NCBI GenBank assembly: GCA_002898255.1
Contig: BEIE01000001.1
Location: 1,240,001-1,304,000, forward strand
DNA from: a bacterium HR28
GTDB lineage: Bacteria; Chloroflexota; Chloroflexia; Thermomicrobiales; Thermomicrobiaceae
DNA: 64,000 nucleotides
Direction: 5' to 3'
Part shown: in pieces, positions 7,698 through 56,794 of the stretch
Numbering within the stretch: the first letter of the stretch is position 1
Layout of the letters: every line of letters begins with the position of its first letter
Position numbers and translations under genes: made by a program
The notes under the pieces: generated by a model
Told to the model about the DNA's origin: nothing
Seen by the model: only the letters and a program-made list of their open reading frames with translations
Database searches by the model: none

Positions 7698-7825
7698 TGC
7701 TCTTTAGGAATGGACCCCGCGGTTGCGCAGCTGGTGAGCGAGTTCGAGCAGCGCGCTGACACGCTGTGAGACAGGTTCTTCGATCCGTTGTATTGTTGCT
7801 AGACGTCCGCTGCTCTACGAGCTTT

Positions 7826-53226: not shown

Positions 53227-54678
53227 TCATCCCAGGAGTGTACCGCGCATCTCCATAGGCTGGTCAAGAAGCCAGACACCGAAGAGAAAAAGCACTACCT
53301 GGAGGACAATCCAGGGGAGAACGACGTGGAAGCGAAGTTGAAGGTGTCGACCGAGCACAAGTGCCCAGGTAGCTGATCCAAAGAATCCAGCAGCGAAGAC
53401 GAGTAGGACGAACTGGTGCACCACGTTCATCGGAAGCAGACTGGCGAGGTGCCACGCTGGCCAGCCCAGCAACGGATGCCCGAACACGTCCATGACAAAG
53501 CTTTGCGTCAATGGCACAACCGTCAGCGCGCCGGTTAGGAAATGGAAGAGATAGTGAGCTGCCCACATGCTGAAGCCCAGCGGAGCCAGGGAGTACACAA
53601 ACTGGCGGAATCCCCACCATGGTGAGCGTGCTCGCGCAAGCATGCTCGTCGCAAGCCCGGCGAGCAGTGCAGTAATCCCGAGGAGGCCGACACCCGCGAG
53701 AAAGACGAGTGCGAGCAAAAAGCCTTCGCTGGTAATGTGAAGCGTCTGGCTGAGCCAGCTTAGGAACTGGTAGACTGGGCTCACCATGCCGAAAGCGTTG
53801 AGGAATCCAAGCCCGGTGAGCCCGAGGACGAGGAGCATCCAGTCTGGACGGTTGCTCAGGCGACCGATTCCCGACCGGTTCACCGTTGGGTCGAGTTCCG
53901 TTATGAGCGGAACGCGAAGGCGTAGGGTCACGTTCTGGACTGGGCAGGCATGAACACAGTCAAGACAGAACGTGCAGTCGAGGTTACCGACCTTGCGCGG
54001 TTGGAACAGGCCGAGTTCGCAGCCATATTGGGCTAGTTTGCCTGCTGCATTAAAGTGTCCGCGGATACAGTCTTTGGTCACGCAGCTTGCGCAGACCGTC
54101 GGGTCACGCACAGTGACGACTGTCGGTGAAGCCAACGAACCAAGAAAATTGAATTGGCCAATTGGGCAGACATGCTTGCAGAACGCTGCACCACGGAAGA
54201 ACCCATCGATGAGAAATGCGGCCACGAAATAGGTGATGATCACCCAGGCAGTCAGCAGGGGGCTTGCCCAGAGGTCAAACGCTTCATAGGCCCAAAAGAA
54301 GACGATGAGGAGCACGAGCGCCAGCCATTTCCCAGGAAGCCAGCGTGGCCAGGCACGCTGTGCTCGGAAGAGTCGCCGGGCGAGTCGGCGGGGAAGAAGG
54401 AAGGGGCAAGCGAAGCAGAACAGGTTACCTACCAGGAACAAAGCCAGCACCACGAGCCCACGCCAATGGACCCAGGGCAGGACACCAGCGAGATTCTTTG
54501 GGGCAAGGGGCGGCCCGAAGAACCCGTCATAGAGTACAAGCAGAGCAAGTATGAGAAGTACCACCTGAGCACTCGTTCGGGTATGTCGCCAGCGGAGCCA
54601 ACGGCCCAGGATTGGCCAGTGTTGCAGGTCGCTGGGTGATCGAGTGCTTCCCAGGATTAGCGCAGTTCGATGTGCCAT
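53227..54678 (-). CDS. Membrane polyferredoxin, NapH/CcoG-like (FesM-type)
   Basis: A 483-residue protein with about ten spans. Cysteine motifs are GNLFCFACPFLL, AAFCKHVCPIGQF (C-x3-CP, as in NosR/NapH), CASCVTKDCIRG and CTFCLDCVHACPV, enough for about two [4Fe-4S] clusters on the cytoplasmic face. The second half is all membrane. Such proteins pass electrons from quinol across the membrane to periplasmic reductases or copper sites. ATG 54678 follows AGGAGCCTTGCC; the open frame from 54876 is not used. It is 10 bases after the lipoprotein gene. Confidence 0.8.
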   Translation of the reverse strand: MAHRTALILGSTRSPSDLQHWPILGRWLRWRHTRTSAQVVLLILALLVLYDGFFGPPLAPKNLAGVLPWVHWRGLVVLALFLVGNLFCFACPFLLPRRLARRLFRAQRAWPRWLPGKWLALVLLIVFFWAYEAFDLWASPLLTAWVIITYFVAAFLIDGFFRGAAFCKHVCPIGQFNFLGSLASPTVVTVRDPTVCASCVTKDCIRGHFNAAGKLAQYGCELGLFQPRKVGNLDCTFCLDCVHACPVQNVTLRLRVPLITELDPTVNRSGIGRLSNRPDWMLLVLGLTGLGFLNAFGMVSPVYQFLSWLSQTLHITSEGFLLALVFLAGVGLLGITALLAGLATSMLARARSPWWGFRQFVYSLAPLGFSMWAAHYLFHFLTGALTVVPLTQSFVMDVFGHPLLGWPAWHLASLLPMNVVHQFVLLVFAAGFFGSATWALVLGRHLQLRFHVVLPWIVLQVVLFLFGVWLLDQPMEMRGTLLG

Positions 54679-54688
54679 GGCAAGGCTC

Positions 54689-55150
54689 CTACTCGTGCGT
54701 TGGCGTTGCACCAGAACCCTGATCGTGAGCTGGGGTTGCAGGGGACTGTATCCCCGACCGAACACCAGGGATCGTGGTGCGAGCCTCGAACGCTTGTCCA
54801 TTCCAGGTTCCGCGCACGATGATGATCCAGTCTCCAGCCATGGTGAACTCGAAGCCTTGCGTGACAAAGACTGCATCGCCTTCTTCGCGGGCCTGCACGA
54901 TCACTGGCTTCATACCAGCGTGGGACATGGTGCCTTCGACTTCCACCGAGCCGAGGCCGACGATGGGCTGCCCGCGTTGATCACGGAGCCGCAGGCGGAG
55001 CTCGGCTGCACCGACTTGTGGCGGCGACGGCTTGACCGAGACGATGTCAACCGTAACCTGCGAATTCTGTTGTCCACGTTGGCAGGCGATCAGATTGCTG
55101 GCTAGAACGCTCAAAAGTAGGAGTGGGATGATAACGCGAAGAACCCACAT
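54689..55150 (-). CDS. YtkA-like domain lipoprotein
   Basis: A 153-residue exported lipoprotein with lipobox SNLIACQRG (Cys about 23) and a beta-sandwich YtkA/FixH-type domain (VEVEGTMSHAGMKPVIV, then TMAGDWIIIVRGTW). A His- and Met-bearing MSHAGMKP loop could bind copper. The ATG has GGAGGAGG immediately upstream, and that site is one arm of a strong hairpin. It is the second gene of the cluster, overlapping the His-rich ORF by 40 bases. Confidence 0.75.
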   Translation of the reverse strand: MWVLRVIIPLLLLSVLASNLIACQRGQQNSQVTVDIVSVKPSPPQVGAAELRLRLRDQRGQPIVGLGSVEVEGTMSHAGMKPVIVQAREEGDAVFVTQGFEFTMAGDWIIIVRGTWNGQAFEARTTIPGVRSGIQSPATPAHDQGSGATPTHE

Positions 55151-55557
55151 AATGCCTCCTCCGAATGATCGCCAAACTGCCTTGGCAGACGATCATCGAG
55201 CTTGCGCGGAGGAGGCGAATCAGGCTCGTGCTGTCGACCAGATGGCGAGGAGGGTAGGTAGCCCGCGCACGGAGTACGACCACGGCGTCTGGGAGGGTTG
55301 GCGAGAGCAGGAAGAATCGCGATTCCCAACACGAGGGCAGTGCCGCCACTCGGTGCAAGGAGATTCACGTCCTGCGCATCAATGCTCATCGGCGGCCGCA
55401 GTGGGCCGTGATGGTGTCTAGAAAGCTCGAAGAGCGCGTGTGGATGCGGAGCATCCGCACCGCAGGTGCAGACGGTTGGAAAAAGGAGAAGTGTGAGGCC
55501 TGTTGCCAGAACTGCCAAAAGTGTGATGGTGGTCGTCGTGCGTTGCGTCGTCCTCAT
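55111..55557 (-). CDS. Small His-rich secreted or membrane protein (hypothetical)
   Basis: A 148-residue frame with a signal-like N-terminus ITLLAVLATGLTLLLF, then CTCGADAPHPH and LSRHHHGP, a possible metal-binding Cys/His segment. A second hydrophobic run GGTALVLGIAILPALA follows and then a basic tail. AGGAAACACG precedes the ATG. It leads the polyferredoxin/SCO cluster, and its translation would run through the hairpin that hides the next start. The far C-terminus could be only read-through. No family recognised. Confidence 0.5.
   Translation of the reverse strand: MRTTQRTTTTITLLAVLATGLTLLLFPTVCTCGADAPHPHALFELSRHHHGPLRPPMSIDAQDVNLLAPSGGTALVLGIAILPALANPPRRRGRTPCAGYLPSSPSGRQHEPDSPPPRKLDDRLPRQFGDHSEEALCGFFALSSHSYF
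55151..55216 (-). promoter_or_regulatory. Hairpin sequestering the lipoprotein ribosome-binding site
   Basis: In the minus-strand RNA, GCCTCCTCCG (plus 55207-55216) pairs perfectly with CGGAGGAGGC (55154-55163), which is the Shine-Dalgarno site three bases before the ATG at 55150. Nested inside are ATGATCG/CGATCAT (7 bp, 55065-range equivalents at 55165-55171 and 55190-55196) and GCCA/TGGC. One side has a 10-base internal loop. The site is therefore closed unless a ribosome translates through the upstream ORF or the RNA melts. Confidence 0.7.
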
Positions 55558-55617
55558 CGTGTTTCCTGCCTGCGGGTGCGGCAGGCACTCAGAGTAGTGT
55601 ACGGAATCGTGCTGGCC

Positions 55618-56385
55618 TCATGCCTGCTCTGCCGAGACTTTCCGGGTAGACACGGCATGACCAGATGACACCTTGGATGGAAGAGGCCTTTGTCCTCGTG
55701 CGATCGCCACGGCTGCTTCGGCGAGCAGACGGGTAGGATCGACAATCGGAACGGATAGCGCGTCCTGCGGGAATATAAGCGGGAGTTCTGTACAACCAAG
55801 GACGAGAGCGCGAGCGCCGCAATGGACCAGCCAGCGTCCCGCAGCCAGCGCCAACTCAGTGGTTTCTGCGTCCAGCTTCCCTGCTTTGACACGCATAATC
55901 GCGCGGGTGACCAGCGACTGCTGATCTGGATCAGGGACGAGAGCCTCCAGACCGCGGCGGGTAAGGGCATCCTGGTACAGACGGCTTGCAATCGTCCCGG
56001 TGGTGGCCAGAATACCTACCAATGACCCAGCGGGTACTAGACGGCTCAATTGTTCAGCCGTCTCTTCGATCATGCTGATGATGGGAATCGAGACTCTTTC
56101 GCGAACGGCGGAGAGAAACGCGTGCGCAGTGTTGCACGGAATGATCAGGAAATCTGCGCCGGCCGCTTCAAGCCGTTGGGCACTCGCTATGAGCCAAGGG
56201 GTTGGATCAGGACCGTTGCCGAGGAGCGCAGCGGTACGATCCGGGATGCGTGGGTCGGCATCAATGATCACATGTAGATGATCCTGGTCACAATTGGCCG
56301 GTGTGAGTTCGATGATCTTCCGGTAGAGATCGACGGTTGCCAGGGGGCCCATCCCGCCGAGAATCCCAATCGTATACCGCTGCAT
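55618..56385 (-). CDS. Aspartate/glutamate racemase family protein
   Basis: A 255-residue PLP-independent racemase. The two catalytic cysteines are in LIIPCNTAHAF and LVLGCTELPLIF, and the N-terminus is IGILGGMGPLATVDLY. It interconverts aspartate or a related amino acid's enantiomers, perhaps for the cell wall or D-amino-acid metabolism. ATG 56385 is preferred over the adjacent ATG 56388 because GGAGG lies five bases upstream; the frame opens at 56580. It is upstream of the His-rich gene by 60 bases and may share its transcript. Confidence 0.9.
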   Translation of the reverse strand: MQRYTIGILGGMGPLATVDLYRKIIELTPANCDQDHLHVIIDADPRIPDRTAALLGNGPDPTPWLIASAQRLEAAGADFLIIPCNTAHAFLSAVRERVSIPIISMIEETAEQLSRLVPAGSLVGILATTGTIASRLYQDALTRRGLEALVPDPDQQSLVTRAIMRVKAGKLDAETTELALAAGRWLVHCGARALVLGCTELPLIFPQDALSVPIVDPTRLLAEAAVAIARGQRPLPSKVSSGHAVSTRKVSAEQA

Positions 56386-56794
56386 CATCCCCTCCGAATC
56401 ACTGCACACGCTCACCTGATCCGAGCATAACCGATGCCCCACCGAGTACGAGGGTCGCTGGTGTCGGGTGCCAGGAAGAACAGGGGATTTATTATTCCGA
56501 GATAGATGCGACTGGCGCACGCTGCGGACATAGAGCAAGCGCCGTAAGGCGGGTTGTCTAGAGCATGGCGCACACCACAAGATACATTCTTTGACATCGA
56601 TCTTGGCCGTATTGGCGCTTTACTCGGCAGTGGGAATCTACGTCGCGAACAATTCCGTCACCGGCGTCGCGGTAGTTGATCTCAAGGACAACCGAGCGGA
56701 TAAGTAGCCGTACCAAGGTTGGCGGTGGCTATTCCTTGACGAGTGGGCTGACAACACGCAGGATCGTGCTCGAGGAGCAGATCGGGGGAAGCCG
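56386..56794. other. Gap upstream of the ABM-domain gene
   Basis: 409 bases between divergent genes, with no complete gene. It holds a short reading frame at 56591-56707 that may be a gene fragment. A TTGACG at about 56735 could be a -35 for the downstream gene but has a poor -10. Confidence 0.35.
56591..56707 (+). pseudogene. Possible YVTN beta-propeller fragment
   Basis: A 38-codon frame (TTG to TAG) starting LTSILAVLALYSAVG and continuing IYVANNSVTGVAVVDLKDN. The second part resembles a YVTN propeller blade (YVxNxx...VxVID). There is no ribosome site, and no other blade is found nearby, so it is either a decayed remnant or chance. Confidence 0.25.

Follow-up and report, generated by a model that had tools for sequence, protein, structure and literature searches.

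A review of translational coupling (PMC12548453) sets out an RNA-unfolding model, with the coat-lysis genes of phage MS2 (50-nt overlap), genes VII-IX of phage f1 and rpmI-rplT as cases, and reports that scanning back has been shown for the coat-lysis pair of phage fr, which has a 38-nt overlap. The locus described here lies in a stretch of 64,000 nucleotides of bacterium HR28 (contig BEIE01000001.1), referred to as the window, and consists of a hairpin at the junction of a His-rich gene and a lipoprotein gene. In its predicted fold, the hairpin fits the RNA-unfolding model in anatomy. The best reading of it, with a probability of about 0.55, is that RNA unfolding couples the translation of the two genes within a probable copper-handling operon, both the repression and its relief being putative.

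As in MS2 coat-lysis, the downstream ribosome site of HR28 lies in a hairpin, the two genes overlap (50 nt in MS2, 40 nt in HR28) and upstream translation is expected to open the structure. Unlike MS2, the anti-Shine-Dalgarno (anti-SD) sequence of HR28 is predicted to form one perfect 10-bp helix from the Pro codons of a cellular gene, and both the length and the frame of the overlap vary among the relatives of HR28. E. coli rpmI-rplT and phage f1 VII-IX share with HR28 a structure, putatively inhibitory in HR28, that surrounds the ribosome site of the second gene and extends into the first (PMC12548453), but their genes and structures are different, and the genes there have no overlap or an overlap of 4 nt. 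A metal-linked parallel is Salmonella mgtQ-mgtB (PMC8092293), where the ribosome site of the downstream gene becomes free when an upstream ORF is translated. That ORF is very short and intergenic, with alternative stem-loops and a response to magnesium, whereas the upstream ORF in HR28 is a full gene and no alternative stem was found.

The operon and the His-rich protein family

HR28 was assigned to Thermomicrobium on the strength of its relatives; the nearest matches were Thermomicrobium sp. CFH 73360 and an uncultured member of the genus. All genes of the region are carried on the minus strand. The features, in the direction of reading and with positions of the window, are as follows.

56397-55618, minus strand: Asp/Glu-racemase-like gene, first in the reading direction
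55601-55596, minus strand: promoter-like TACACT
55585-55565, minus strand: leader hairpin before the start codon of the His-rich gene, a second candidate control element
55557-55111, minus strand: His-rich ORF, 148 aa, spanning the hairpin and the first 40 nt of the lipoprotein gene
55216-55207, minus strand: anti-SD arm GCCTCCTCCG, the third base of Ser114 and CCT CCT CCG (Pro-Pro-Pro) of the His-rich ORF
55206-55164, minus strand: 43-nt loop with a 9-bp stem (55197-55189/55172-55164) and a 4-bp stem (55188-55185/55180-55177)
55163-55154, minus strand: SD arm CGGAGGAGGC, ribosome site of the lipoprotein gene, with the SD core 4 nt before the ATG
55150-54689, minus strand: YtkA-like lipoprotein, 153 aa, with masked ribosome site (Pfam/NCBIfam)
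After the lipoprotein gene, minus strand: NapH-like ferredoxin-type membrane protein, second, weakly YtkA-like protein and SCO1/SenC (Pfam and NCBIfam)

In HR28 the His-rich ORF stops 37 nt inside the lipoprotein gene, leaving an overlap of 40 nt. The gene content, with SCO1, YtkA-like and PCuAC neighbours, supports the assignment of a probable copper-handling operon.

The His-rich protein had no match in Pfam or NCBIfam. Its family is laid out as a membrane segment, the motif C-x-C-G-A-x-x-P-H-P-H-x-L-F-x-L-P-G-H-H-H-G and Pro-Pro-Pro-Arg (PPPR) near the C-terminus. Of 158 genomes covered by a profile search of the class, 20 carried the family, often with more than one copy, and all of these belong to one order, Thermomicrobiales. 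The loci at 55111-55557 (minus strand) and L096:6427-6921 are examples, standing near SCO1, YtkA-like or PCuAC genes. A paralogue on contig C5 of HR28 is followed by a SCO1-like protein, SCO1 and the copper chaperone PCuAC; no comparable strong SD was seen by eye ahead of its next gene. These neighbourhoods make copper handling a reasonable assumption for the family, with metal binding putative. Copper dependence was named as a test in the earlier note; a link to copper is supported for the operon, by SCO1, the YtkA-like protein and the paralogue before SCO1-like, SCO1 and PCuAC genes, but nothing ties the hairpin itself to copper.

PPPR is kept across the family, with or without the hairpin. 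Since family members lacking the hairpin have it too, PPPR was not selected for the purpose of pausing alone. The tail past PPPR varies in frame and length by species and is unlikely to be important as protein.

Structure of the hairpin

The outer helix was formed by ten perfect base pairs out of ten between GCCTCCTCCG and CGGAGGAGGC. A 10-base anti-site fully paired with the ribosome site of the lipoprotein and situated inside the His-rich ORF had been described in the earlier note. Both points hold on the minus strand, the anti-site being coding sequence of 55557-55111, a conserved gene. The dimensions required correction: the spacing given as 44 bases is a loop of 43 nt, and of the nested stems of 7 bp and 4 bp, the latter was found as described and the former has 9 bp. 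Folding of 55225-55140 (minus strand) gave -38.5 kcal/mol (z -3.25), and 3 of 200 shuffled sequences folded equally well. The SD was unpaired at about 0.0001-0.0002 at 37°C in silico, corresponding to a ribosome site masked by structure, and ranked among the least accessible of 131 sampled sites. An intrinsic terminator was ruled out, the 3' arm being followed by ATTATG and no U run.

RNA thermometers have their SD paired in a similar way, and the host is thermophilic. A hairpin that melts with rising temperature and so frees the SD is nevertheless scarcely credible here. The helix is uninterrupted and G-C-rich, and the unpaired probability of the SD was only 0.001 at 65°C, rising to 0.003 at 75°C, with parameters extrapolated to high temperature and 1 M NaCl assumed; both close relatives gave similar values. 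Melting with temperature had been put forward earlier, but the ribosome site was more than 99% paired at 75°C in silico. HR28 differs from RNA thermometers in having no predicted opening up to 75°C, an anti-SD within a translated gene and no Rfam match; the region 54600-56500 had no match to Rfam 15 covariance models up to E = 1. The element is read as a familiar type of control in a new setting rather than as a temperature switch, an ordinary mechanism within an uncharacterised operon.

Comparison with chance expectation

The hairpin could be a by-product, in which the C-rich codons of the conserved Pro-Pro-Pro-Arg happen to complement a nearby purine-rich SD while steady translation keeps the RNA open and nothing is controlled. 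This explanation is possible but less probable than coupling. The background sample covered 459 kb of the HR28 genome, made up of 395 kb in 20 stretches and the window, and yielded 131 ORF starts with a strong SD, which are mechanical calls and not curated genes. A perfect anti-SD of 10 nt within 100 nt upstream was found at 1 of the 131 starts. The next best match was 8 nt, a perfect anti-SD at a mechanically called start on the minus strand of L077 (reverse-complement position 7820). In dinucleotide shuffles, a match of at least 10 nt occurred at 0.076% (0.00076) per site overall, or about 0.1 expected in the sample, and at the lipoprotein site itself in about 0.17%. When the upstream ORF was re-drawn with synonymous codons of genomic usage and the protein fixed, 10 nt were reached in 0.14% and at least 8 nt in about 3% of the draws. 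The 10-bp match between SD and anti-SD is unusual, yet chance alone could produce a few of its kind per genome. The frequencies from the codon draws, by which a few sites per genome are expected, favour a by-product, as does the conservation of PPPR whether or not the hairpin exists; the SD accessibility, among the lowest sampled, speaks against it. The rarity of the match in the sample and in the shuffles counts in favour of coupling, as does the fold z of -3.25.

Conservation in Thermomicrobium

Six other genomes of the genus were compared, and a scan of the genome collection revealed no further close member beyond these six. The operon was present in six members of the genus including HR28. 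All ten pairs of the outer helix were kept in three species, namely HR28 and L002 and L003, the only close Thermomicrobium relatives found. In L002 the G-C at the innermost pair is replaced by A-U, a double and compensatory change, and L003 has a G-U at the outermost pair. As to covariation in relatives, whose absence the earlier note named as a refuting result, the outer helix was kept with one compensatory change, but the shuffle control was not exceeded (280 of 500, with three sequences only). Covariation across the three species is suggestive only. The saving of the innermost pair by a double change and of the outermost by G-U, with ten pairs intact in three of three species, is not what a by-product leads one to expect; the lack of significant covariation is in keeping with one. 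The same applies to the codons, as 24 of 44 degenerate codons with a conserved residue were identical in all three species. Because so many are identical anyway and the anti-SD is largely fixed by the protein, the two kept CCT codons say little alone.

The inner stems were broken in the relatives, with 78% and 75% of cells paired and no pair changed on both sides. The nested hairpin, as it had been described earlier, is consequently not kept as a unit. A stable stem at a cistron boundary might also serve stability or processing and give the two cistrons unequal lifetimes, instead of acting as a translation switch. Such a role is very unlikely, as the conserved arm coincides exactly with the SD, the nested stems are lost and the hairpin lies within translated sequence.

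The upstream frame is open through both the anti-SD and SD arms in the three species that keep the helix, although an open frame across so short a stretch is not improbable by chance. Beyond the arms these species differ. The His-rich frame reaches about 241 nt into the lipoprotein gene in L002, and in L003 an extra base joins both genes in one open frame with no stop before the end of the lipoprotein frame. This frame of L003 (Thermomicrobium sp. CFH 73360; L015:7442-8341) would encode a potential 293-aa fusion protein that carries the lipoprotein signal internally. The differences weigh on another explanation, termination and reinitiation, in which ribosomes that reach the His-rich stop codon 37 nt into the lipoprotein gene would return to the ATG of that gene, the hairpin doing no more than blocking independent starts. 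The 40-nt overlap resembles that of phage fr coat-lysis (38 nt), but with about 241 nt of overlap in L002 and no stop in L003, the explanation appears unlikely.

The outer helix was absent from the three more distant genus members with the operon (L004, L005 and L006), in which the His-rich reading frame terminates at PPPR or soon after it, ahead of the lipoprotein start. A genus-wide element was ruled out, L004 and L006 being without the helix and L005 masking its SD by a different pairing. The lipoprotein SD of L005 (0.002 unpaired at 37°C) is masked by CCCTACCTCG, which is located right after the stop codon of the His-rich gene, in the intergenic gap; the effect of this alternative pairing is possibly similar to that of the HR28 hairpin.

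Proposed model of translational coupling

The anti-site would be translated within a real, conserved upstream gene, which makes coupling the natural reading. Folding in cells, repression and relief by upstream translation are inferred, and the lipoprotein is probably made mainly during translation of the His-rich gene. In free mRNA, the lipoprotein SD would be paired over 10 bp with the Pro-Pro-Pro codons and 30S subunits would hardly start. A ribosome on the Pro codons, with its P-site at about -75 to -42 from the lipoprotein ATG, would cover the anti-SD and leave SD and start codon free. A 30S subunit would then get a brief chance to bind at the uncovered lipoprotein site, and lipoprotein output would run roughly in step with the His-rich protein.

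A ribosome was modelled as a 29-nt footprint blocked at successive positions with the pairing recomputed, equilibrium and a single ribosome being assumed. When the modelled ribosome was placed over the anti-SD but clear of the ribosome site, SD exposure in HR28 reached about 0.21 at 37°C (0.0002 without the ribosome) and about 0.22 at 65°C (0.006 without it). The rise in L002 was like that of HR28 (about 0.2). At 65°C, exposure in L003 increased from 0.008 to no more than about 0.03, since the SD there is taken up by pairing with other stretches. The helix reformed after passage of the modelled ribosome in all three species, and a ribosome terminating at +37 would therefore not hold the hairpin open. 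Denser polysomes would expose the SD more. The model backs the direction of coupling and not its strength, and coupling would be partial. The earlier proposal that lipoprotein synthesis is tied to upstream translation is supported as regards coupling, by the masked site, the conserved gene and the helix in three species. It is not supported as regards a metal-sensing leader, the upstream ORF being a full gene of an uncharacterised family.

If confirmed, the locus would be a clean case of overlap coupling through a perfect SD/anti-SD helix in a thermophilic lineage of the Chloroflexota. It would also tie a lipoprotein of a copper pathway to an uncharacterised His-rich partner, which hints at joint action in a fixed ratio. 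Furthermore, it offers a test case for whether the moment at which the next ribosome site opens is set by proline codons serving as anti-SD.

Any anti-SD with CCU CCU in the reading frame must specify Pro-Pro. At runs of Pro-Pro-Pro ribosomes pause and need EF-P. Stalling of ribosomes at consecutive Pro codons is also stated in PMC8092293. It is conceivable, though improbable, that the same Pro-Pro-Pro bases act both as the lock and as the waiting place of the ribosome that opens it, with the downstream ribosome site uncovered. Lipoprotein output would in that case depend on EF-P and proline supply, and a like arrangement might be sought in other operons. A literature search gave no direct precedent for a polyproline anti-SD.

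Candidate leader element of the His-rich gene

TACACT (TAGACT in L005) and a hairpin before the start codon of the His-rich gene were found in all six genus members with the operon. The stem sequences differ, and the fold z of the leader hairpin ranged from -0.4 to -6.2 among the six. Whether the SD hairpin is the clearest control element in the region, as the earlier note has it, is open to doubt, given TACACT and the leader hairpin in six genus members versus the SD hairpin in three. Judged by this distribution, the leader element may be the better-conserved control element.
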